Positions 2,869 to 54,356 of a DNA stretch of 64,000 nt are shown here, piece by piece. The translations under genes were made by a program, and so were the position numbers. The stretch comes from Gemmatimonadota bacterium. Lineage in GTDB: Bacteria > Gemmatimonadota > Gemmatimonadetes > Longimicrobiales > Gaopeijiaceae. Numbering within the stretch: position 1 is the first letter of the stretch; each line of letters opens with the position of its first letter. The notes beneath the pieces are model-generated. The model saw only the letters and a list, made by a program, of their open reading frames with translations, did no database searches and was not told where the DNA came from. The stretch covers positions 62,001 to 126,000 of the forward strand of contig JAJDTB010000038.1 of NCBI GenBank assembly GCA_022827345.1, read 5' to 3'.

Positions 2869-4554
2869 ATGACAACTTTCGAGCACCTGCCACTCGGTCC
2901 CGAGACCGTGGCGGCCCTGGCAGCCGAGGGGATGGAGGTGCCGACCCCCTTCCAGTCCGCGGCGATCCCCGTGATCGCGCGCGGCAACGACCTCATCGGA
3001 CGCGCCGGACCCGGTAGCGGTACGCTGGTCGCGTACGGCGCGCCGCTCATCGAGCGCATCGAGGGAGGCACCGGTTCGCCCGCCTGCCTGGTCCTCTGCA
3101 CGGGCCATCGGCAGGCCACCGAACTCGCCCGCTCGCTGGCGACGCTGTGCGACTCCGCAGGCTTGCGCGCGGGCGCCCTGGCCCCGCACTGGAACCACCC
3201 CGAGCTCGCCGACATCCTCTTCGTACCGGCCGACCGTCTGAGCGCGCTGTACGACGGCACGGTGCGAGTCGATGCCGTGCGCGCGGTCGTCTTCCACGAT
3301 GGCGACGGCCTGGTGAAGAGCGTCCCGGCCGACCGTCTCGAAGCGCTGCTCACGGGGCTGCCGAGCGGCTGCCAGCGCATCTTCTGCGGTCTCCCGTTCG
3401 GGCCCGGCCTGAGTTCGCTGGCGCGGCGCTTCACCTCAAAGGCAGTCACCATCCCACCGGGCGACGATACTCGAAGGCCGTCGCGGAAGAAGTCCAAGCC
3501 GGTGCGCGACCTGCACTTCTCGGTCACCGAGGGCGACGATGCGGAGGCCGCGCTGGCGCTCGTGTCCAGCCTGCTGGGCGATTCCACGCTCCACGTCCTT
3601 CTCTACACGGCTTCCGCCGACCAGGCGGCGGACCTGGGCGACTTCCTGGCCGTGCACGGGTACGCCTCCGGCCCGCCAGGCGACGCCACCGCACCCGTTT
3701 GGCTATGCCCCGGCGAAGAGGACGGCGCACGCGAGGTCCTCGATGGAATGCACGATCCCTCCCGGGTGGCGACCGTCTCCTGCGGCGTGCCGCCAGGGAC
3801 CGAAAGCGCCAGGACCAGGCATTGCGGCGGCGGCCCCGCCTGGGCACTGCCTGCCGTGCGCGAGTTGGGGCACCTCAGGCAGGTCGCCTCCGACGCCGGG
3901 CTGAAGCTCAAGCGCATCCGCCCCGACCGTCCGAAGCGCGTCTCGGGAAGACTCGACGAACTCGCCGACCGTCTGCACGAAGCGGCGCGCGCGCCCGAAG
4001 CCACGCCCTACTACCTCCTGGTGGAGTCCCTCCTCGAACGCTTCACCGCGGCGGAGGTTGCCGCGGCCGCCCTCCTCCTCCTCGACCGCGATTCAGGCGG
4101 GAAGCCGGCCGCAATGCGCGGCGGCTCCGCCGCTGGCGCCGCCGTCCCCGAGAGCTGGGTGCGCCTCTTCGTCTCCGCCGGGCAGCGAGACGAACTCGGT
4201 CCCGGCGACATCCTGGGCGCGATCACCAACGAGTCGGGGCTCGACGGCAAACGAGTGGGCCGGATCGATGTCCGCGAGAGCCACTCCCTCGTGGAGGTGT
4301 ACCAGAGCGATGCCAAAAAGGTGATCGGCGCGCTGAACGGCACCACGCTGGGAGGCCGCAGCCTGCGCGTCGACTACGATCGGGCGAAAGACCGCCGGCC
4401 CGGGGGCAAACCGTCCGGTGGTCCTTCGCGGCCGGGACGCGGTCCTTCGCGGCCCTCCGGGCGTCCTTCAAAGCCGGGACGCGGCCCGTCCGGGGGTCCG
4501 GGTGGTCCGGGCAGGAGTCCGTGGAAGAAGCCGCGCGTGCACCGAGACCGGTGA
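2869..4554 (+). CDS. DEAD-box helicase-like protein with degenerate ATPase motifs and C-terminal DbpA-type RNA-binding domain
   Basis: The protein is 561 residues long. The N-terminus keeps the Q motif layout (PTPFQSAAIPVIARGNDLI, about residues 24-42), but motif I reads AGPGSGTLVAYG, where the P-loop lysine of AxTGSGKT is missing. The DEAD position is VVFHDGDGLV, and the SAT motif position is IFCGLPFG. The second RecA-like domain lacks the arginine-finger HRxGR motif. After about residue 425 there is a DbpA-type RRM-like domain (VRLFVSAGQRDELGPGDILG to LRVDYD), then a Gly/Pro/Arg/Ser-rich basic tail. Family knowledge: DbpA-type domains bind rRNA and the G/R-rich tail adds unspecific RNA binding. 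Inference: this is an ATPase-dead RNA-binding paralogue, perhaps a ribosome-assembly or RNA-chaperone factor. The frame is intact over its length, so it is not a decaying pseudogene. Confidence 0.8.
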   Translation: MTTFEHLPLGPETVAALAAEGMEVPTPFQSAAIPVIARGNDLIGRAGPGSGTLVAYGAPLIERIEGGTGSPACLVLCTGHRQATELARSLATLCDSAGLRAGALAPHWNHPELADILFVPADRLSALYDGTVRVDAVRAVVFHDGDGLVKSVPADRLEALLTGLPSGCQRIFCGLPFGPGLSSLARRFTSKAVTIPPGDDTRRPSRKKSKPVRDLHFSVTEGDDAEAALALVSSLLGDSTLHVLLYTASADQAADLGDFLAVHGYASGPPGDATAPVWLCPGEEDGAREVLDGMHDPSRVATVSCGVPPGTESARTRHCGGGPAWALPAVRELGHLRQVASDAGLKLKRIRPDRPKRVSGRLDELADRLHEAARAPEATPYYLLVESLLERFTAAEVAAAALLLLDRDSGGKPAAMRGGSAAGAAVPESWVRLFVSAGQRDELGPGDILGAITNESGLDGKRVGRIDVRESHSLVEVYQSDAKKVIGALNGTTLGGRSLRVDYDRAKDRRPGGKPSGGPSRPGRGPSRPSGRPSKPGRGPSGGPGGPGRSPWKKPRVHRDR

Positions 4555-4584
4555 GGCACCGGGCCGGCAAGGCGCGACGAGAGG

Positions 4585-4603
4585 GGAATAGCAGCGCTAT
4601 TCG
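4585..4603. terminator. Inverted repeat between convergent genes, possible bidirectional terminator
   Basis: GAATAGC-AGC-GCTATTC (4586-4602) is a perfect 7-bp stem with a 3-base loop, extended outward by G-C pairs. It lies 31 bases past the stop of the DEAD-box-like gene and about 85 bases past the stop of the minus-strand small membrane protein gene. No T-run follows on either strand, so it may be a mere transcript-end hairpin or a repeated extragenic element. Confidence 0.35.
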
Positions 4604-4688
4604 CCCGAGGAGCAACGCATAGCGGAAGCGATCCAGCCCGGATCCATCGCCGGTCGAATGCCGCGGGGATTCCTCCGCGGGCTCCCAA

Positions 4689-7792: not shown

Positions 7793-7944
7793 ACGGGCCT
7801 GCGAGGCTGTGGCGGCATCGACCGGGGGCGGGACGGGCGGAGTGGCCCGTGTGTCCGCGGCAGGCTATGGTTCTCGCGAAGGGCGAGAAGCAGGGCGGGC
7901 TCGTCTGAAGAGGAACGCAGAGCGGAGTCCTGGGGACGAGAATA

Positions 7945-7981
7945 GTAAAGCAAACATGACATTCTGTAATATTTACTTTAC
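7945..7981. promoter_or_regulatory. Tandem operator pair, 21-bp period (shared with 33861-33897)
   Basis: Two 16-base sites lie in an unusually AT-rich patch: GTAAAGCAAACATGAC at 7945-7960 and GTAATATTTACTTTAC at 7966-7981. The second agrees at 14 of 16 positions with GTAATGTTTACATTAC at 33861-33876, and the first at 11 of 16. In both places the site starts are exactly 21 bases apart, two helical turns, so one regulator dimer pair could bind the same face. The pair ends 34 bases before the ATG of the PorV-like gene, where a promoter would be expected. The regulator is unknown. Confidence 0.6.
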
Positions 7982-8015
7982 ATCACATTCCGCTGGGGGC
8001 AGCGGTCCGGCGGGC

Positions 8016-9008
8016 ATGCTGCGCCGCTTGAATGCCACGGCGGGGATTGTCCACGGGCTGCGGGTGGCCGCGTTCGTGTTGGCGATTGCATGGGCCGGGC
8101 CGTCCGGGCCCGCGATCGCACAGGGGCAGCACGCCTCGGTGCGGTCACAGGCGTCGCCCACTCCAGGTCCTCTCGTGCTGAAGCTCGGCGCGAGCACCCG
8201 GGCGGCCGCGCTCGGCGGCGCCTTCTGGACCGGCGACGGGGCCGATGCGGTCCTGCACCACCCCGCGCTGATCGGGGGCGAGGGATTCGGCGGCTCCCGG
8301 CAGCGGATCGGGGGAGCGACCCACATGGTCCTGAGCGGCAGCCGCGGCTGGCTGGGGGGCGCCGTCGCGGCGGGTATCTCCTTTCTCGAGTACGGGACCG
8401 GCGCCACGTCGCCGCTGGAGCTGCCGCGCGAGACGGCGGCGCTGATCGGGGGCGGCGACATGGCGGCCTCCGAGTACGTGGCGGCGCTGGGGTACGCCGA
8501 CGAGATGTTCGGGTTCGGCCTGGGGGTGGCGGCCAAGCTGATCGGCCAGCGGCTGGGCGGGCTGCGGGGCAACACGACGGCGGTCGATCTGGGCGCGGCG
8601 AGGGACATCGGGCCCTTCACCGCCGCGGTGTCCGTGCAGAACCTGGGCCGCGCGCTCAAGGTCGGCCGCCACGAGGTGCCGCTGGCGCGGCGCGTGGTGC
8701 TGGACGCCGGTACCGGCGGGCGCGCCCCGGCGGGACCCTTCGATATCGGGGCCGCCGTTCGCGTGGCGCGCGAGGGCGACGGGGAGATCGTGCCGGGTGG
8801 AGGCGTGGAGATCGCGTGGTGGCCGGTTCAGCGCCGGATCTTCATCGCCCGGATCGGGCTGAGGCGGCGGGCGGAGGGGGAATCGTCACCGTTCACCTTC
8901 GGCGCGGGGTTCGAGGGGGACCGCATCCGGATCGACTACGCGTACGGCGAGTACATGCACGAGGACCTCGCGGCGGACTCCCACAGGATCGGGATCGCGT
9001 TTCGGTAG
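8016..9008 (+). CDS. PorV/PorQ-like outer-membrane beta-barrel protein
   Basis: The start at 8016 gives 330 residues with a classic signal peptide (about residues 1-36, ending AIAQ). An ATG at 7956 lies inside the operator patch and is less likely. The mature part begins LVLKLGASTRAAALGGAFW and contains VLHHPALIGG, the N-terminal signature of PorV/UPF0164 barrels (usually PxAAxxLG..A...GDAxAxxxNPA). It is followed by repeated Gly-rich amphipathic strands (for example TTAVDLGAARDIGPFTAAVSV). PorV-type proteins act in the outer membrane, in Bacteroidota as a type IX secretion shuttle; in Gemmatimonadota the role is undefined. The gene is monocistronic and convergent with the hydrolase gene 33 bases downstream. 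Regulation probably runs through the tandem operator just upstream. Confidence 0.78.
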   Translation: MLRRLNATAGIVHGLRVAAFVLAIAWAGPSGPAIAQGQHASVRSQASPTPGPLVLKLGASTRAAALGGAFWTGDGADAVLHHPALIGGEGFGGSRQRIGGATHMVLSGSRGWLGGAVAAGISFLEYGTGATSPLELPRETAALIGGGDMAASEYVAALGYADEMFGFGLGVAAKLIGQRLGGLRGNTTAVDLGAARDIGPFTAAVSVQNLGRALKVGRHEVPLARRVVLDAGTGGRAPAGPFDIGAAVRVAREGDGEIVPGGGVEIAWWPVQRRIFIARIGLRRRAEGESSPFTFGAGFEGDRIRIDYAYGEYMHEDLAADSHRIGIAFR

Positions 9009-32400: not shown

Positions 32401-32955
32401 GAGGGCGGTGAGCAGGAGGGTGGTGAGCAGCAAGGCGGTGAACAACAGGGCGGACAGCAGCAGGGCGGCCAACAGCAAGGCGGACAGCAGCAGGGCGGCA
32501 ACCCGACCGGCGGTGAACGCAACGCCGGAGGCGCTCCCGGTGCGAGGGACTACCGCGACGGTGATTGGCGAGGGGGCGGCCCCCGCAACTTCGACCCCGA
32601 TGCAATACGCCAACTGCGGCGCGAGGCCCGCGAGCGCCTGGGCGAGACGGTGGCGCTGGGTCAGCTGCTCGAACGCATCGGCGCCGACCCCCAGGAACTC
32701 CGCGACATGATCGAGGCCATGCGCGCGCTGGACCGCGAGCGGACCTACGCGGACCCGATGGAGGTGATGCGGCTGCAGCAGGAGCTCGTCGAGACCATCA
32801 AGCAGCTCGAATTCCGGCTTCGGCGGGAGTTCGCCACGGACGAGGAGGGCGAGATCTTCCTCTACCAGTCCGGCGACGTCCCCGACGAGTACCGGGCTCT
32901 GGTCGAGGAATACTACCGCGCATTGGCACGAGGCAGAGGAAGCGAGCGCCGGTGA
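29449..32955 (+). CDS. DUF4175-like membrane protein with long coiled coil and Gly/Gln repeats
   Basis: This 1168-residue protein has hydrophobic helices at about 26-46, 65-85 and 155-172 and then a periplasmic beta-rich region (about 180-500; SVGVEPGDTVISRNSDLMV and similar Ig-like strands). A poly-glycine run at about 510-523 marks the border to a very long charged coiled coil (about 525-950) rich in Glu, Arg and Gln. A Gly-Gln-Glu repeat follows at about 983-1020. The C-terminal 130 residues are again helical (RQLRREARERLGETVALGQL). The layout matches DUF4175 proteins found next to MoxR/DUF58 genes. It is the largest member of the operon and probably the structural rod of the complex. ATG at 29449 lies inside the previous gene. 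Confidence 0.8.
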   Translation: MSPTGNRRSDGEILRVVGRVRRRWRLKLLLRGLALTIGGVLLTFLISASGLEALRFTPGAVTGMRILLWVVVTFFLARWILWPLLRPVSDERVALYLEENEPSLQSRVLTAIESAKGGRFADSELSREVVRRAVWRCRRIDYGRRIEQRSIRRSTGMLGGLTLASVVLLLVGPGFLRHGMSALFFPVRAAESVNPYSVGVEPGDTVISRNSDLMVSAVLRGFASDDVVLYTRADGDDGFLSLPMIEDGTGAFEGLLLNVAEETTYYVEANGVRSGTFTLGVADLPAVDRLEMVYHFPRYTRLAPRRFEYGGDVAALAGTRVELTVTPTLATPSAQLVMDTGDTISMETGPEGNYTASFIVRDDGFYGIRFLAHGDVWVAGAPDYRIDVLHDQGPSISFSRPGRDITVSSIEEVFLEARADDDLGVADISLIYSVNGGPSDTLQIHSAGGAPLTEVTAGHTVFLEDYELEVGDLVAYHGVVRDNAPSPNESMTDIYFLQIRPFRRDYREAEGGGGQGGGGGGGGGGDMEQDLSALQRQIIAATFNLVRDRDSYAPESWEENVVSVALTQERLREQVETLGQRIVNRGIGGADEAFQRIVEALPVAVEAMNEAVDSLRAVKPSGAIQAEQRSLRQLQKAEETYERFVSQQPQQPGGGGGRQQGPSAEDLADLFELETDKLRNQYETVQRSQQETADQEVDELMEKLRELARRQEQELERQQRRAAAQQGGQQGGGSDAARALAEEAEEAARRLERLSRESGDRRLEEVARQMQQSADAMRRSAASGGSAGVAEARSALRRLREARDDLGGAQDERLERDLEDARQRVDELGRQQEDVENRMEQMARVGRPSADQVGRIRETKEDMAEEVGDILANLDQLAATARRDGTEGAAELQEATETIRDTQLRERLLYSRGLVGRPGQEEYAEAFENQTAQAIQSLGNRLDEAAEAIQGRAQDNSEQEALESARDLVRSLESMERRLRAGGQEGGEQEGGEQQGGEQQGGQQQGGQQQGGQQQGGNPTGGERNAGGAPGARDYRDGDWRGGGPRNFDPDAIRQLRREARERLGETVALGQLLERIGADPQELRDMIEAMRALDRERTYADPMEVMRLQQELVETIKQLEFRLRREFATDEEGEIFLYQSGDVPDEYRALVEEYYRALARGRGSERR
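32395..32512 (+). repeat. In-frame Gln/Gly repeat tract
   Basis: A 12-base unit encoding G-G-x-Q (CAGGGCGG-type) is repeated about nine times within the DUF4175-like gene; the amino-acid unit drifts from GGEQE to GGQQQ. It is a coding low-complexity tract, prone to slippage, and may vary in length between strains. Confidence 0.7.
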
Positions 32956-33770
32956 GCAATTCTCCCGCCGCGCCCACGGCGGCCACCCGCGACATCAAGT
33001 TGTCCATCGAGATCCGGGCACCGGCGGATGCCGTTTGGCGAGCGATCAGCGAGGGCGAGCGCGTTGCCAACTGGTTCGCGCCCATCGCCTCCGGCGAAAT
33101 CGGCGAAGGCGGCCACCTCAAGGTGTCGTGGGGCGGCGAGGCGGTGTGGACCAGTTGGGTCACCGTCTGGGAACCGCCGCACCGGCTCCGCCTGGTTGAC
33201 GAACTTCCTGAAGGGGCGGCTGACGAAGGCGCCCAAATGGCGCTTGAATACCGCCTCGAGCCCGCGAACGGCGGCACCCGCCTCACCCTCGTGAACTCGG
33301 GTCTGTCGGCCGATCCCTCCTGGGACGACGGCGTCCACATGATGACCAACGGGTGGCGGTTCTTCCTCTGGAACCTCAAGCACTACCTTGAGCGGCACCC
33401 GGACTCGCGCCGCACGATGATCAGCGAGCGGCCGTGGGTGACGGGTACCCGCGAGCAGGTGTGGGACGCGGTATTGGGAGTGGACGGTCTTGGCGGCGTG
33501 CCGGCGCGGCCTGGCGACCGGTTCACCCTCCGGCTCGATAGCGGCGAGATGCTCGAAGGCACCGTCGTCCTCTGCGACCGGCCCTGGGCGTTCGCCGGAA
33601 TGGTGGCCTCGCTGAACGACGGCGTCCTGCACGTCGAGATGGAGGGGAGCGGGGACCGATGGAAGATGGGTGTTTGGCTTTCGATGTACGGAGTGGAGGA
33701 AGAGCGATGCAAAGAGATCGGCAAGGCGCTCGGGCAAACGATGTCGCGTCTGTTTCCCGAGGAGGGCTGA
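32952..33770 (+). CDS. SRPBCC (AHSA1/START-like) protein
   Basis: A GTG overlapping the previous stop (GTGA) gives 272 residues. The first half is a clear AHSA1-type domain: IKLSIEIRAPADAVWRAI, ERVANWFAP, GGHLKVSWGGE, WEPPHRLRLVDE, GGTRLTLVNSGL and GWRFFLWNLKHYLE. The second half (TREQVWDAVLGVDGLG to SLNDGVLHVEME) reads like a second, shorter SRPBCC copy. These domains form a cavity for a hydrophobic ligand; AHSA1 relatives also bind Hsp90-type chaperones. There is no signal peptide, so it is cytoplasmic. As the last gene of the long operon it could be a ligand sensor or chaperone cofactor, which is inference. Confidence 0.82.
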   Translation: MSNSPAAPTAATRDIKLSIEIRAPADAVWRAISEGERVANWFAPIASGEIGEGGHLKVSWGGEAVWTSWVTVWEPPHRLRLVDELPEGAADEGAQMALEYRLEPANGGTRLTLVNSGLSADPSWDDGVHMMTNGWRFFLWNLKHYLERHPDSRRTMISERPWVTGTREQVWDAVLGVDGLGGVPARPGDRFTLRLDSGEMLEGTVVLCDRPWAFAGMVASLNDGVLHVEMEGSGDRWKMGVWLSMYGVEEERCKEIGKALGQTMSRLFPEEG

Positions 33771-33860
33771 GGGCGACCCCAACGGACCGCGGAAACACCC
33801 TCCTGCGCATTCAGCGGGCACGGCATCCGCGTTTGACGGCACGCTTCACGCGCTCTATTT

Positions 33861-33897
33861 GTAATGTTTACATTACGATTTGTAATGTTGTCATTAC
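33861..33897. promoter_or_regulatory. Tandem perfect palindromes, 21-bp period (operator)
   Basis: GTAATG-TTTA-CATTAC (33861-33876) and GTAATG-TTGT-CATTAC (33882-33897) are both perfect 6-bp inverted repeats with 4-base centres. Their starts are exactly 21 bases apart. They sit in an AT-rich window between the SRPBCC stop and the signal peptide of the WD40/amidohydrolase protein, hence in its expected promoter. The same pair, less perfect, occurs at 7945-7981. The size and symmetry suit a dimeric helix-turn-helix repressor. Confidence 0.68.
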
Positions 33898-33910
33898 ATT
33901 TCTCCAATCC

Positions 33911-36900
33911 CTGGCTCCGTTATGGTACACCCGGTGCGAGGCGCGGCCAAGACACCGACCGTCGCTTTCCCGGATTCGACGACTCTTCGCCACCGCCTTC
34001 GGTACGGCGGTCCTGATGGCGCTTCCCCTCCAGTCCGGAGGAATCTCTCACCCTCTCACCGCCCAGGAAGCTGACGCGGACGACCCCCATCCCCAGCAGG
34101 AGGGTCTCCCCCTCGCCCCCGGCCGCACCATCTCCACCAGCTTCACCGAGGGCTCGTGGATGTCGGTCGACGTCAGCCCCGACGGCCAGACACTCGTCTT
34201 CGACTTCCTCGGCGACCTCTACACCCTGCCGATCACCGGGGGCACCGCCACACCGCTCACCCGGGGCATGGCCTTCGACGGGCAACCGCGGTTCAATCCG
34301 GACGGCACGCGCGTGGTCTTCACCTCCGACCGCAGCGGCGGTGAAGGCATCCACATCATCTCGCTGGACAAAAGCGACACCGTCCAGATCACGCAGGGGA
34401 AGTCGAGCTCCTACCAGTCCCCCGAGTGGACCCCCGACGGCGACTATGTGATCGCCACCAAACAGACGCCCGGACAGGGCAAGCTGTGGCTCTACCACGT
34501 TGACGGCGGCACCGGGATCCAGCTTATCGACGAGCCCGCAAACCGCCGCACCACCGGGGCCGCGTTCGGCGCGGACGGACGCTACATCTGGTACGCCTAC
34601 CGCACCGGCAGCTGGGAGTACAACTCCGGCATGCGCCAGTACCAGCTCGCCGTCTACGACCGCGAGACAGGCGAGTCGGCCACCCGTTCGTTCCGCTACG
34701 GCGGCGCCTTCCGACCCACACTCAGCCCCGACGGGCGCTGGCTTGTCTACGGCTCCCGCCACATCGGCGACACCGGCCTGCGCATCCGCGACCTCGACAA
34801 CGGCGACGAGCGCTGGCTCGCCTTCCCCGTCCAGCGCGACGACCAGGAGTCCCGCGCCACGCGCGACGCCTACCCGGGCATGTCCTTCACGCCGGACTCG
34901 GACGCGTTGATCGCGTACTACGGCGGCGGCCTGTGGCGCGTCCCCGTCGACGGCTCCGACCCCACGCCCATCCCCTTCCGCGTCGATGTCGACATGGCGA
35001 TCGGCCCGGAAGTCGATTTCGACTACCCGATCGAAGACACCGAGACCTTCGTCGCCAAGCAGGTCCGCGACGCGGTGCCGTCCCCAAGCGGCGACCGCAT
35101 CGCCTTCTCGCTGCTGGCCGGCGTCTACGTCATGGAATGGCCCGACGGGACGCCCGAACGCCTCACCCGGTCGCAGGCCAACGAGCACATGCCCACCTGG
35201 TCGCCCGACGGCGAGGCCATCGCCTACACCACCTGGGACGACGCCACCGGCGGCCACATCTACCGCGTCGACGCACGCGGCGGCGACCCCACCCGACTCA
35301 CCACCGCCCCCGCCCTCTACGACAACCCGGTCTGGTCGCCCGACGGCGACCGCATCATCGCGGTCCGCGGTCCCGGCCGCGCCTACGACGAGGCCCTGAC
35401 CCGCGGCGTCCCCGGCGGCGCCGACGACCTCGTCTGGATCCCGGCCACGGGCGGCGACGCCACCGTCATCGCCCCGGCACGCGACCGCAACCACCACTTC
35501 ACAAGCAACGCCCGCCGCATCCACGCCTACAACCCCGGCGACGGCCTCGTCTCGTTCCGCTGGGACGGCACCGACCGCAAGTCACACGTGCGCGTGGTGG
35601 GCGCGGGTCCGCCGGGATCCAGCACCCCACCCCCCGCGACCCTCATCACCATGGCACCGCGCGGCGACCAGGCGCTCGCCCGCGTGTACAACCACCTCTA
35701 CACGGTCACCGTTCCGCTCGTCGGCGGCGATGTCCCCACCATCAACGTCGGCAACCCCGACAACGCGTCCTTCCCCGCCCGCCAGCTCACCGAGATCGGC
35801 GGCGAGTTCCCGGCGTGGGGCGCGGACGGCCGCCGGATCCACTGGACGATCGGCAACGCGCACGTCGTCTACGACCTCGACGCCGCCCGCGCATTCGAAG
35901 ACTCGGTGGCCGCGGCCCGCGAGGCGGACGAGCCGGACGAAGCCGAGGACGATCCCGACGCCGCCGACATCGAGACCGCCGACACCCGTTACACCCCGCA
36001 GGAGACCCGCATCCGCGTCGAATTCCCCCGCGACACGCCCCGCGGCGCGGTCGTCCTGACGGGCGCGCGGGTCGTGACCATGAACGGCGACGAGATCCTG
36101 GAACGCGGCGACATCGTGGTGCGCGACAACCGCATCGCCCAGGTCGGAGCCACCGGTTCGATCACGCCCCCGCCCGACGCGGCGGTCATCGACCTCGCAG
36201 GCAGGACCGTCGTGCCCGGCTTCATCGACACGCACGCCCACCTCAGGGCCCAGGTCAACATCCTCCGCACTCAGCCCTGGTCCTACGCGGCCAACCTCGC
36301 CTACGGCGTGACCACCACCCGCGACCCCCAGACCGGCACCACCGACGTCGTCAGCTACGAGGACCTCGTGCGCGCGGGCCGGATCCTGTCGCCGCGCATC
36401 TATTCGACCGGCCCCGGCGTCTTCTCTTCCGAGAACGTGAAGGATCTCGACCACGCCCGGCACATCCTGCGCCGCTACAGCGACTACTATGACACCAAGA
36501 CGATCAAGATGTACGCCGCCGGGAACCGCGAGCAGCGCCAGTGGATCATCGAGGCGGCGCGCGAGCTCGAGCTGATGCCCACGACCGAGGGCGGTCTCGA
36601 CACCAAGGCCAACATGACCATGGCGATCGACGGCTACTCGGGCGTCGAGCACAACATGCCGGCCTTCCCGATGTACGCCGACATGGTCGAGCTCGTGGCG
36701 CGTTCAAACATGGCCTACACGCCCACGATCCTCGTCACCTACGGCGGTCCCTGGGCGGAGAACTACTTCTACGCGACCGAGGACGTGCTCGGCGACGAGA
36801 AGCTCGCCCGGTTTACGCCCACGGAGGAGATCCTGCAGAAGGCGCTGCGCCGGCCGGGGACGGGACCGGGGCCGTCAGGCTGGTTCCACCCCGCGGTGCA

Positions 36901-37303
36901 CACCATGGATCAGGTGTCGGCGTTCGTGCGCGATGTGATTCGTGCAGGGGGAAGGGCCGGCGTCGGGAGTCACGGCCAGCTTCAGGGGTTAGGGTACCAC
37001 TGGGAACTGTGGGCAACCCAGGCCGGCGGAATGACCGAGCACGAGGCGCTGCAGGTCGCCACGATCCTGGGCGCGCACTCGCTCGGCCTGGACCGCGATC
37101 TCGGCTCCATCGAGGTTGGCAAGCTGGCAGATCTGGTCATCCTCGACGGCAACCCCCTCGACGACATCCGCAACAGCAACACGGTCGACCGCGTCATGGT
37201 GAACGGCCGCCTTTACGACGGCGACACCCTGGACCAGGTCTGGCCCGACCAGGTCACGGCAGGGCCGTTCTACTGGCTGCGGGAAGCTCCGCCGGGGCGG
37301 TGA
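33911..37303 (+). CDS. Secreted WD40-like beta-propeller / amidohydrolase fusion
   Basis: The mature protein is clear: a signal region (LFATAFGTAVLMALPLQ), PD40/TolB-like propeller blades (GSWMSVDVSPDGQTLVFDFL, DGQPRFNPDGTRVVFTSDRS and so on, to about residue 690), then an amidohydrolase (imidazolonepropionase-like) with GFIDTHAHLRAQ as the HxH metal site, YGVTTTRDPQTG, and late GLGYHWEL and ADLVILDGNPLDD. Such fusions occur as secreted dipeptidase or hydrolase-type enzymes in Gemmatimonadota. The start is a problem: no ATG, GTG or TTG lies in frame between the operators and the signal peptide. CTG at 33911 is used here, ATT at 33974 is another option, and upstream ATGs lie inside the SRPBCC gene. 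Confidence 0.78.
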   Translation: MAPLWYTRCEARPRHRPSLSRIRRLFATAFGTAVLMALPLQSGGISHPLTAQEADADDPHPQQEGLPLAPGRTISTSFTEGSWMSVDVSPDGQTLVFDFLGDLYTLPITGGTATPLTRGMAFDGQPRFNPDGTRVVFTSDRSGGEGIHIISLDKSDTVQITQGKSSSYQSPEWTPDGDYVIATKQTPGQGKLWLYHVDGGTGIQLIDEPANRRTTGAAFGADGRYIWYAYRTGSWEYNSGMRQYQLAVYDRETGESATRSFRYGGAFRPTLSPDGRWLVYGSRHIGDTGLRIRDLDNGDERWLAFPVQRDDQESRATRDAYPGMSFTPDSDALIAYYGGGLWRVPVDGSDPTPIPFRVDVDMAIGPEVDFDYPIEDTETFVAKQVRDAVPSPSGDRIAFSLLAGVYVMEWPDGTPERLTRSQANEHMPTWSPDGEAIAYTTWDDATGGHIYRVDARGGDPTRLTTAPALYDNPVWSPDGDRIIAVRGPGRAYDEALTRGVPGGADDLVWIPATGGDATVIAPARDRNHHFTSNARRIHAYNPGDGLVSFRWDGTDRKSHVRVVGAGPPGSSTPPPATLITMAPRGDQALARVYNHLYTVTVPLVGGDVPTINVGNPDNASFPARQLTEIGGEFPAWGADGRRIHWTIGNAHVVYDLDAARAFEDSVAAAREADEPDEAEDDPDAADIETADTRYTPQETRIRVEFPRDTPRGAVVLTGARVVTMNGDEILERGDIVVRDNRIAQVGATGSITPPPDAAVIDLAGRTVVPGFIDTHAHLRAQVNILRTQPWSYAANLAYGVTTTRDPQTGTTDVVSYEDLVRAGRILSPRIYSTGPGVFSSENVKDLDHARHILRRYSDYYDTKTIKMYAAGNREQRQWIIEAARELELMPTTEGGLDTKANMTMAIDGYSGVEHNMPAFPMYADMVELVARSNMAYTPTILVTYGGPWAENYFYATEDVLGDEKLARFTPTEEILQKALRRPGTGPGPSGWFHPAVHTMDQVSAFVRDVIRAGGRAGVGSHGQLQGLGYHWELWATQAGGMTEHEALQVATILGAHSLGLDRDLGSIEVGKLADLVILDGNPLDDIRNSNTVDRVMVNGRLYDGDTLDQVWPDQVTAGPFYWLREAPPGR

Positions 37304-50627: not shown

Positions 50628-51512
50628 TCAGGAACCCCCTCGATCAAAGCAGGACAGCCTCATGCGCCCGTTCTTCCCCCCGACCGCGCAGTCATCGAGA
50701 TGGCGCCCCTGATTGCGCATCCCTCGGAAGCTGCGTCTCATGTCGCCGATCTCGTCTTTCACGAAGGACTGATACTCCTCCGGGGAGACCATTCGTCCCT
50801 CGTCCGCCGGCGGGACGATCTGCTCCTCGGCACCATCCAGCGAGACCGCCGTGGCGCCGTAGATGGTGCTGCCGCCGTTCAGCGACAGCACCAGGATCAC
50901 CCCCGGCAGGCCGCCATAGAGCGCCGGCCCTGCCTGCACAGGAATGTCGGGAGCAAACCAGGCGACCATCTCGCCGCCGTCCGACAGTGCCGCGGCCCTC
51001 CTCACCCGATAGCCCGCATGCGTGCGCTGATCATCGGTAAGCCGCCAGTCGACGCTGGGCGGGGCATCCGTGCGCAACACCTCCTCAAACGCTTCGAGCA
51101 CCCTGACCCCGGGGGCGCCGTCGGAGCCTGAGTAGGCCCGCGTTACCGCATTCTCCTGGCTCGCCGCAACAGACTCGACCATCTCGACCAATACATCGAG
51201 GTTGCCGTGTGTCATGGGGAACACAGCGGGAGGGGGTTCCTGACCTTCGTCTTCCGGTGCCGGGACCATCAGAGACGCTGACGGATTGAAGTGAAGCAGG
51301 AAGGATCGATCCCTCGCCGCCGCGAGCCTGTTTCGGACCTCCGCCATCTCACCCGGCACCTCGGCATCGACGGTGGTCACCCGCGTGTAGGTGATGGTTC
51401 CGCTCTGGGCATCGGCCGGCCCGGATGACGCAACGGCGAGTGCTCCCGCCACGATCCACGGCAAACGGCGTCCGTGACTCCGGGTCAACGGCTCGGGCTC
51501 GGCTATTCGCAT
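50628..51512 (-). CDS. GLPGLI-family secreted protein, downstream copy
   Basis: The 294-residue protein begins with a basic n-region and a hydrophobic core (LPWIVAGALAVASSGPADAQ), hence is exported. The mature part starts SGTITYTRVTTVD and contains the family mark YGGLPGVILVLSLNGG (about residues 218-233), preceded by MVAWFAPDIPVQAGP. A C-terminal charged stretch includes EEYQSFVKDEIGDMRR, followed by two cysteines. GLPGLI proteins come with TonB-receptor-like proteins; the role is unknown, perhaps metal or peptide related. It follows the receptor gene by 63 bases on the same strand. Confidence 0.86.
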   Translation of the reverse strand: MRIAEPEPLTRSHGRRLPWIVAGALAVASSGPADAQSGTITYTRVTTVDAEVPGEMAEVRNRLAAARDRSFLLHFNPSASLMVPAPEDEGQEPPPAVFPMTHGNLDVLVEMVESVAASQENAVTRAYSGSDGAPGVRVLEAFEEVLRTDAPPSVDWRLTDDQRTHAGYRVRRAAALSDGGEMVAWFAPDIPVQAGPALYGGLPGVILVLSLNGGSTIYGATAVSLDGAEEQIVPPADEGRMVSPEEYQSFVKDEIGDMRRSFRGMRNQGRHLDDCAVGGKNGRMRLSCFDRGGS

Positions 51513-51575
51513 TTCCAGGTGCCTCCCCAGCGCGGCACTTCGCCGCTCTCGTTCCTCACACGGGGTTATCCACTG

Positions 51576-54356
51576 CTACCGCCGTCCGCCGCGTCCGCCC
51601 CCACGTCTAACCCCACGCCCACCCATTTGGTTCCCCAGCCGATACATCACCCGGAGCATGAAGTACTGCCCGAGCGATTCCGTCCGCGACTCCTCGATGA
51701 AGCTCGCCGAATTCGTGACCGAGACGCCCTGATTCTGGTTGAGCAGATCGTAGGCCTGAAGCTCGATCTCGGCGCGCTCGTCGAGCACCCGCCGGGTGAT
51801 CGAGGCGTCCCAGCGGGCGATGTTCCGCGATTCCGCGAACAGCCCCTGATCGTAGGTGCGGTAGCGGAAATCCGTCTCCAGCTCCCAGCCGCCGAGGTAG
51901 AAGGTCGCTTCGCCGCGGTACTGGCTGTTCAGGTAGTTGCGGTTGAGCTCCTCGTTCAGCGAGTACTCGACGTCGTTGAGGCTGAAGTCCGCCGTCAGCT
52001 CCACATCGAAGCGGTCCTTGATACGGTTCTCCAGGCTCACCTCGAAGGTGTTGCGCAGGATCTGGCTCTCGTTGGCGGCCAGATTGATCAGCTCCGTCCC
52101 CTCGGAATACGTGATGCGGTACTCCAGGTCGAGTTCGATGCCCAGTCGCCGGATCGGCGTGCCGAAGTTCGCCCCCAGATTACTCGACCATTCACCGTCG
52201 GTGTTGACCGGCATCCGCGTCTGGAACCCGCGTTCGTTGAAGATGCGCGACGTGGAAATGCTGTTGTGGTTGTAGTCGAGGCCGGCAAACGTAAAGAAGT
52301 TGATGAAGCTGAACTGGTCGAAGAAGCGATATTCTGCGTCGACCGAGTGCTCGTACTCGGGGCGCAGGTCCGGGTTGCCCGAGTAGACGTTGAGGGGATC
52401 GCGGTTGTCGGAGTAGGGCTGGAGCTGCGTGAGCGACGGCTCGCGGCTGCGTCCGCTGTAGCTGAACTCGATGTTCTGGCCGTCCTTGATCTCGTTCTTG
52501 AACTGGGCGTTTGCCAGCAGGTGCGTGTAGCCGTTCTCGATGGTCTGGTCCCGGTCCAGGATGACGCCTTCGAGCTGCGAGCGCTGCAGGCGGAGACCGA
52601 CGGTGAACCAGTGGAGATCGTCCTGGTGGCTGTAGCGTGCCCCGCCCTGGAGATAGGTGTACGCCCGCTCGAATCCGGAACTCAGACGGTCGTTGAAGAC
52701 GGGCGCGCCACCGACGAGGTCGTAGACCGAATTGTCCCGGTCTTCACGCGTCCAGTTGCGCTGGCCGAACACCTCCATGGTGTGACCTTCGGAGAGCGGT
52801 TGCGTCAGCGACAGCCGCGCCGAGTTGTTCCAGGTGCGCCCCACCCGTGACTGTTCCTGCAGGATCTCCTCGAGATCGTCGTCGCGCCCGCGCTGCCCAC
52901 GCACTTCACCCGTGACGACAGACGACAGGTCGGAGGAGAGATCGGAGTCCTGCAGGCCGCTTCTGACCTCGGCAACCAGGCTGCGCCCGTTCTCGCTGAG
53001 CCGCTTGCGCCATGTCAGTCGCGCGTTGCCGCCCAGATCGTCCCCGTTCACGAGGTAATCCGTGGTGGCCGAATTGAGCATGCTGCCGCTCAAGGTGTGC
53101 GTTTGCCGGTTCGCGAAGGACGTCATCGACGACGCGCGTGTGTTTCCGTCCATGCGCAGCCGCAGATCGTGACCGGCCGAGATGGTGTACTGCGCGTTCA
53201 GATTGAGACGGTGACGCCGGTTGCCGGTCTCCTGGTTGCTGGACTGGTCCACCAGCGATGCGACATCCGAGCCGAAAAGCGCCTGCTGCTGAAGCGTTTG
53301 GTCCTGGGAATTGTCGAGTTGGCTGATGAAGTAGCTCCCCCGCAGCCAGGTGTCGTCGTCTCCGAAATCCCGGCTCGCGTTGACCCCGAGGCTGGTGGTC
53401 TCGGTGAAACCGTCGTTGGAGCCGCCGCCCCGCCTTCCGCCTGCGAAGTCCGCGAAGTCGCGCCAGTTGAATCCCGCATTGTTGACGTTGTTCGCGTTGG
53501 CGGTCAGCGCCAGCTGGGTATTCGGCGAGAAGCGGTTCAGCGTCAGCGACCCGTCGTAGCGGGCTTCGTTGCCCACCGGCCCCGTGACGCGGCCCTGGTT
53601 GTCCACGTCGCCGCCGACGCCCCCTCTGGCGCGGCCGAAGTACCCGCTGCGCGCCTCCTCCTTGAGCTTGAGGTCGATCGTGCGCTCCTCCTCGCCGTCG
53701 GGTATGCCGGTGAACTCGGCCATGTCGGACTGCTTGTCGTAGACTGCGACCTGCGCGACCGCGTCGGCCGGAAGGTTCTGCGTGGCCACCGTCGCGTCCC
53801 CGCTGAAGAACTCCTTGCCGTCGACAAGGATGTTCTGGACCTCCTCGCCCTGCGCCGTGATCGTCCCGTCCGAGTCGACCTCGATCCCGGGGAGTCGCTC
53901 CAGCAGGTCCTCCACCGTGGCGTTGGGAGGCGTCGGAAACGCCAGAGCGTTGTAGCTGAGCGTGTCGCGCCGGTTGACGAAGGGCACGTGTTCGACGCTG
54001 ACGACCAGCGAGTCCATCTCCAGCGCCATGAGCGACAGCCCGACTTCCCCGGCGTCCACATCGGCGTTCGTGATATCGAAGTCGCGGCGCAGCGTCCGAT
54101 ACCCGATCAGCGTGACCTGCAGGATGTACTCGCCCGCGGCCAGCCCGGTGATCGCGAACGTCCCGTCACCCCGGCTCAGCGCATACTGGGCCAGGACCGA
54201 GTCCGGCCGCGTCAGCGCGACCACCATGGCGTTCTGCAGGCCCCCTCCCAGCGAGTCTGCCACCGTGCCCCGCACCTGGTACTGCCGCTCCTCTTCCTGC
54301 GCGCTCAAGGGGACGGCCATCGAGAAGCAGGCCGTCCACAGAACCAGAAACCTCAT
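51576..54356 (-). CDS. Outer-membrane beta-barrel receptor with CarboxypepD-like and plug domains
   Basis: I start at the ATG at 54356 (926 residues): MRFLVLWTACFSMAVPLSAQ is a clear signal peptide. Residues ~24-110 are a carboxypeptidase-regulatory-like sandwich (YQVRGTVADSLGGGLQNAMV, DFDITNADVDAGEVGLSLM). A plug follows (about 115-220; ATVEDLLERLPGIEVDSDG, NILVDGKEFFSGD, TIDLKLKEEAR), then a large barrel. The end is Gly/Arg-rich (GGRGVRRGGGRGGRR), unusual because barrels normally end in an aromatic residue; the last strand YFMLRVMYRL precedes it. The type is the TonB-independent-looking OMP_b-brl_3 family of Bacteroidota and Gemmatimonadota. It probably imports or senses a ligand with the two flanking GLPGLI proteins. 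Confidence 0.9.
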   Translation of the reverse strand: MRFLVLWTACFSMAVPLSAQEEERQYQVRGTVADSLGGGLQNAMVVALTRPDSVLAQYALSRGDGTFAITGLAAGEYILQVTLIGYRTLRRDFDITNADVDAGEVGLSLMALEMDSLVVSVEHVPFVNRRDTLSYNALAFPTPPNATVEDLLERLPGIEVDSDGTITAQGEEVQNILVDGKEFFSGDATVATQNLPADAVAQVAVYDKQSDMAEFTGIPDGEEERTIDLKLKEEARSGYFGRARGGVGGDVDNQGRVTGPVGNEARYDGSLTLNRFSPNTQLALTANANNVNNAGFNWRDFADFAGGRRGGGSNDGFTETTSLGVNASRDFGDDDTWLRGSYFISQLDNSQDQTLQQQALFGSDVASLVDQSSNQETGNRRHRLNLNAQYTISAGHDLRLRMDGNTRASSMTSFANRQTHTLSGSMLNSATTDYLVNGDDLGGNARLTWRKRLSENGRSLVAEVRSGLQDSDLSSDLSSVVTGEVRGQRGRDDDLEEILQEQSRVGRTWNNSARLSLTQPLSEGHTMEVFGQRNWTREDRDNSVYDLVGGAPVFNDRLSSGFERAYTYLQGGARYSHQDDLHWFTVGLRLQRSQLEGVILDRDQTIENGYTHLLANAQFKNEIKDGQNIEFSYSGRSREPSLTQLQPYSDNRDPLNVYSGNPDLRPEYEHSVDAEYRFFDQFSFINFFTFAGLDYNHNSISTSRIFNERGFQTRMPVNTDGEWSSNLGANFGTPIRRLGIELDLEYRITYSEGTELINLAANESQILRNTFEVSLENRIKDRFDVELTADFSLNDVEYSLNEELNRNYLNSQYRGEATFYLGGWELETDFRYRTYDQGLFAESRNIARWDASITRRVLDERAEIELQAYDLLNQNQGVSVTNSASFIEESRTESLGQYFMLRVMYRLGNQMGGRGVRRGGGRGGRR

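Follow-up and report, generated by a model that had tools for sequence, protein, structure and literature searches.

A dispersed 42-bp paired-palindrome element in one genus of Gemmatimonadota

The two palindromes at 33861-33897 of the window, that is, of the whole 64,000-nucleotide stretch of DNA that was analysed, are one copy of a dispersed 42-bp element and not a local operator. On the sequence comparisons made here, we give an about even chance to a lineage-specific element that would accommodate two protein dimers, was inserted partly via MITEs, and has been selected at gene ends for a boundary job rather than for promoter repression. Dispersed palindrome families are usually put down to transposase debris or taken for operators. 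This family looks like neither, being found without RAYT, avoiding divergent promoter regions and varying between close species, and the bases presumed to contact protein are nonetheless strongly selected where the copies sit.

Direct reading confirmed what the first-pass annotation had reported of the sequence, namely two perfect palindromes with flawless 6-bp arms, centres of TTTA and TTGT, and a phase of 21 bp. The window holds two copies of the element, the second of which is less perfect:

33861-33876, plus strand: palindrome 1, GTAATGTTTACATTAC; with the preceding T (33860) included, the half-site reads TGTAA, and the half-sites are conserved between the window's own genome and its sister genome
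33882-33897, plus strand: palindrome 2, GTAATGTTGTCATTAC, by direct reading
33860-33901, plus strand: 42-bp paired-palindrome element, scoring 73 bits with the first weight matrix (control 0 at >=15 bits)
7941-7982, minus strand: second, less perfect element copy, found by weight matrix, with an orthologous copy in the sister genome (G009)

Across the window's own genome (4.79 Mb in 75 contigs), perfect GTAATGN4CATTAC occurs 26 times, against once for a reversed control, and 98 times against 2 when up to one mismatch is allowed. In 1.26 Mb of this genome a gap of 4 yielded 23 sites and each other gap from 0 to 8 only 0-2, and close sites were spaced by 21 bp in 17 of 18 pairs and by 20 bp in the other, a count that leaves out register echoes at 5 and 26 bp. 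The aligned copies give an asymmetric 42-bp consensus, TGTAATGTnnACATTACAwwwTGTmATGTTnnCTTTACAttc, and the corresponding weight matrix recovers 74 copies in 2.46 Mb (control 0 at >=14 bits), from which a genome-wide number of about 145 (elsewhere given as roughly 140) is extrapolated. The element is a discrete class, since 75 copies score >=10 bits and 74 of these >=30 bits in the same 2.46 Mb. Pairing is obligate: 55 palindromes lie in 21-bp doublets and the remaining 3 in two 20-bp doublets outside the 42-bp model, so that no lone palindrome was present in the 2.46 Mb scanned.

Many of the 23 genomes of the genus are rich in perfect palindromes, which are nearly lacking in the rest of the family and order. 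Of 20 genomes of the genus sampled, 19 matched the doublet pattern, with up to 130 copies (control 0 everywhere), and the 97 genomes examined from the rest of the order had 0-2 doublets each (control 0). Congeners nearly without doublets do exist, with only 2-4 in G001 and G016 and none in G008. The element family is thus essentially a feature of a single genus of Gemmatimonadota, whose association with sponges is suggested by isolate names. In a congener of 2.8 Mb (G010), most of the listed sites follow a species-specific consensus, GTAAAGN4CATTAC.

Purifying selection acts on the half-sites in place. In 21 gap-free copies shared with the sister genome, 11 of 420 positions (2.6%) had changed in the four half-sites (TGTMA/TTACA), compared with 68 of 399 (17%) in the rest of both palindromes and the spacer; flanks within 15 bp had changed at 14% of positions and distant flanks at 4%. 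Half-sites differ from the faster-changing positions with Fisher P = 6e-13 and 4e-11, although the half-site positions were picked after viewing the data and the copies were ascertained in the window's own genome. The resulting ascertainment bias is judged to be small, because degraded intermediate copies were observed in neither species. A copy that starts at the stop codon of another SRPBCC gene illustrates this constraint, being nearly unchanged in G013, G015 and the sister genome while the DNA beyond it has diverged.

Base-pair covariation between partner positions was not observed under either of the two hairpin schemes. The clear dependencies are instead between neighbouring bases within one half-site (the TGTAA, TGTCA and TGACA variants), and this combination favours a protein on double-stranded DNA, with the caveat that the copies fold slightly better than column-shuffled ones. 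A dimeric protein would therefore fit best as the candidate reader of the element. Together with the obligate pairing and the selection on half-sites, the same dependence upholds the first-pass proposal that paired dimer sites lie on one face of the DNA, and its further suggestion that the putative reader is encoded elsewhere than at the window locus is likewise counted as supported.

The placement of the copies relative to genes, which were called with a home-made codon model, tells against the promoter operator of TetR, LacI or ArsR type that had also been proposed. Among 70 extragenic copies, 22 lie between convergent genes, where 9.5 are expected from intergenic length (P = 1.3e-4), and 7 lie between divergent genes, where 20 are expected (P = 2.8e-4). 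The other 41 are in codirectional gaps, in random orientation (19 vs 22) and with a preference for the 3' side that is not significant (25 vs 16, P = 0.21). Many copies touch or overlap stop codons. With about 145 copies, this is the reverse of operator placement, and an ordinary operator is unlikely as a class: palindromic dimer sites with conserved half-sites are present, but as a class they do not favour promoter regions. It is also unlikely that the copies are ordinary cooperative operators of one transcription factor, carried by mobile repeats to the about 145 targets of an enlarged regulon. The helically phased doublets, the conserved half-sites and a neighbour-base dependence like that of protein recognition agree with such a regulon, as do the many codirectional copies less than 100 bp from a downstream start, but it accounts neither for the depletion between divergent genes, the enrichment between convergent genes and the random orientation, nor for the lack of single sites and of a continuum of weak sites.

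Known operators do provide a partial likeness. The TyrR box is TGTAAAN6TTTACA, and both GlnR/TnrA and TyrR boxes can occur in pairs. The GlnR/TnrA box is TGTNAN7TNACA (PMC6191146). The half-site TGTNA of these boxes resembles the TGTMA of the element, which differs in its N8 spacing and in a genomic placement that is not operator-like.

REPs are located between convergent genes (PMC1525189), and REPINs are doublets that form hairpins (PMC3116915). As with REP/REPIN sequences and their RAYT transposases (PMC3116915, PMC2817692), the element consists of short extragenic palindromic doublets in tens to hundreds per genome, often between convergent genes and variable between species. Miniature mobile DNA of this kind, with arms kept for mobility and not for host function, would also agree with the obligate pairing, the abundance of extragenic doublets, the convergent preference and the presence/absence differences, and the window copy can fold as one long hairpin (-13.9 kcal/mol, z -4.4). 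Membership of the REPINs nevertheless fails, because no Y1_Tnp/RAYT match was found in any of the 23 congener genomes, while 5 of 14 control genomes were positive. In addition, the element is a direct 21-bp doublet of near-perfect, AT-rich palindromes without pairing covariation in either scheme, and constraint in place across species divergence is unexpected for idle copies, making this explanation quite improbable. An RNA-level 3'-end element, with hairpins that stabilise or terminate transcripts, is very improbable despite the 3'-end bias and a mean fold energy of -8.44 kcal/mol against -7.30 +/- 0.30 kcal/mol for column-shuffled copies (0 of 200 shuffles as good), a slight excess that may be explained by shared ancestry of the copies, as TGTCA half-sites would give a C-T mismatch, compensatory changes were not seen, the stems are AT-rich, and at the window copy, the one tested, there is neither a GC-rich stem with a T run nor any terminator-like site nearby. 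Nothing in window 33000-35000 exceeded the Rfam gathering score.

The boundary element remains the preferred reading, and the following mechanism is proposed for it. Two adjacent 18-bp sites (TGTMA-N8-TTACA), 21 bp apart, would be bound side by side by two dimers of a putative sequence-specific protein, probably cooperatively. Copies would arise by insertion, partly as passengers on MITE-like repeats of about 250 bp, and would then be maintained by selection at the 3' ends of genes and in convergent gaps. Their most likely job would be at gene boundaries, as a roadblock or insulator that separates transcription units, or as an anchor of chromosome organisation, although the 3'-end bias could be passive, with insertions at gene ends being the least harmful. 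A more ambitious form of the proposal is tentative and rather doubtful as a whole: that these two-site gene-end elements, at about 30 per Mb, with their putative dimer make up a new genus-confined boundary system, spread by MITEs and then selected, as a young network that organises the nucleoid or insulates transcription, with a distance of several kilobases or more maintained between its elements in the window's own genome. The many congeners, with 0 to 130 copies each, amount to a natural experiment on how binding sites multiply along a bacterial chromosome into a useful network, and the element offers a concrete bait for finding the candidate binding protein.

With regard to spacing, no two copies in the window's own genome lie within 4.4 kb of each other, where 8 are expected below 4 kb (0 of 2000 simulations had as few). 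The single-contig congener G021 has 49 palindromes, perfect or with one mismatch, the closest pair being 10.6 kb apart (P = 0.0024). The spacing is a tendency and not a rule, because closer palindromes are among the listed positions in G007 (1.25 kb) and G012 (249 bp). The short-range exclusion in the own contigs and in G021 recalls target immunity or functional redundancy.

The matS sites of MatP and the NBS sites of Noc are dispersed chromosome-organising sites, and the element resembles them as a dispersed palindromic dimer site without promoter logic. Unlike them, it is an obligate doublet, differs between close species and is not tied to a ParB paralogue, and it shows no macrodomain bias in G021, where the ori/ter bias of the palindromes was not significant. 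A ParB/Noc paralogue was considered as the reader and rejected: each of the 23 genomes has one strong ParB_N match, second and weaker matches occur only in G014 and G016, and carriers thus have no consistent extra ParB/Noc-like protein. PadR, the sole regulator family looked for, gave only 4 matches in the window's own genome, and a PadR operator was set aside.

The window copy sits in an insert between two genes of the same strand:

32952-33770, plus strand: upstream gene, AHSA1/SRPBCC-domain protein of 272 aa (Pfam AHSA1, E = 1.1e-18)
33793-33979, plus strand: insert of about 180-190 bp carrying the element, approximate extent; present in the 95%-identical sister genome and absent from several congener junctions
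34016-37303, plus strand: downstream gene, PD40 propeller and amidohydrolase (Pfam PD40, E = 6.1e-24; Amidohydro_1, E = 6.3e-22)

The upstream part of this insert resembles the left body of the MITE-like repeats. At this position the own and the sister genome both have the element, and the 10 congener loci read lack it. According to the gene calls, the amidohydrolase start overlaps the upstream stop in four of these element-free loci (L107, L108, L115 and L117), the gene begins 24 bp past that stop in a fifth (L113), and in the other 5 a different gene or arrangement follows. The frame of the amidohydrolase gene in the window is open from 33542, with an ancestral start position at about 33767, and no sigma-70-like promoter was found near the window copy. 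The first-pass annotation had named sites lying inside a translated region, together with a transcription start far upstream, as an observation that would count against its proposal, and this is partly what was found: in both the own and the sister genome the insert keeps the frame open across both palindromes, in frame with the amidohydrolase, but the present start codon is uncertain, and the window copy may therefore be leader or coding sequence.

Some copies lie inside a repeat of about 250 bp with inverted ends of two types, and the second element of the window lies in a copy of this repeat. The same repeat body also exists without the 42-bp element:

7875-8061, minus strand: MITE-like repeat around the second element, by repeat comparison
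4516-4687, minus strand: MITE-like repeat with the same body, without the 42-bp element, by repeat comparison

A further stretch of the window (51502-51581, plus strand) is a copy or an end of the MITE-like family without the element, and other contigs contain solitary left or right MITE ends whose mates were not found. One clean insertion of the repeat is at C9:199492, where the sister genome has an empty site and there is apparently a 3-bp target duplication. Inverted ends and an empty site thus link the embedded copies to MITEs; the 42-bp unit, on the other hand, is separate from the MITE, with most copies showing no MITE flanks. A search for an autonomous partner of the MITE, covering 51% of the genome, did not find one, as single MITE ends there lack a mate around a transposase gene. 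The Mu/Tn7-type transposase domain PF09299 gave no hit, yet the control genomes gave none either, and this result is hence uninformative. A phage origin was considered and rejected, with no exact tandem match in viral contigs.

Scripted scoring of 30 loci between the window's own genome and the sister genome returned 23 copies as present, 6 as absent (at L202, L208 and L209 one flank aligns poorly) and 1 as unscored, the last being the clean MITE insertion. At the dapF/lptG junction the own genome has a copy and neither the 94%-identical sister locus nor the other relatives examined has one, a difference that could stem from insertion in the own genome or from loss in the sister, and these cannot be distinguished with certainty. 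At L025 (4274-4600) a MITE-type copy is followed, 168 bp downstream, by a Fur-family gene (Pfam FUR, E = 1.5e-16), and at L022 (4013-5488) a predicted lipoprotein signal peptide, MCNVNITFCNVKFTFLLASAGAVALSGC, appears from a home-made gene call to begin in the element.
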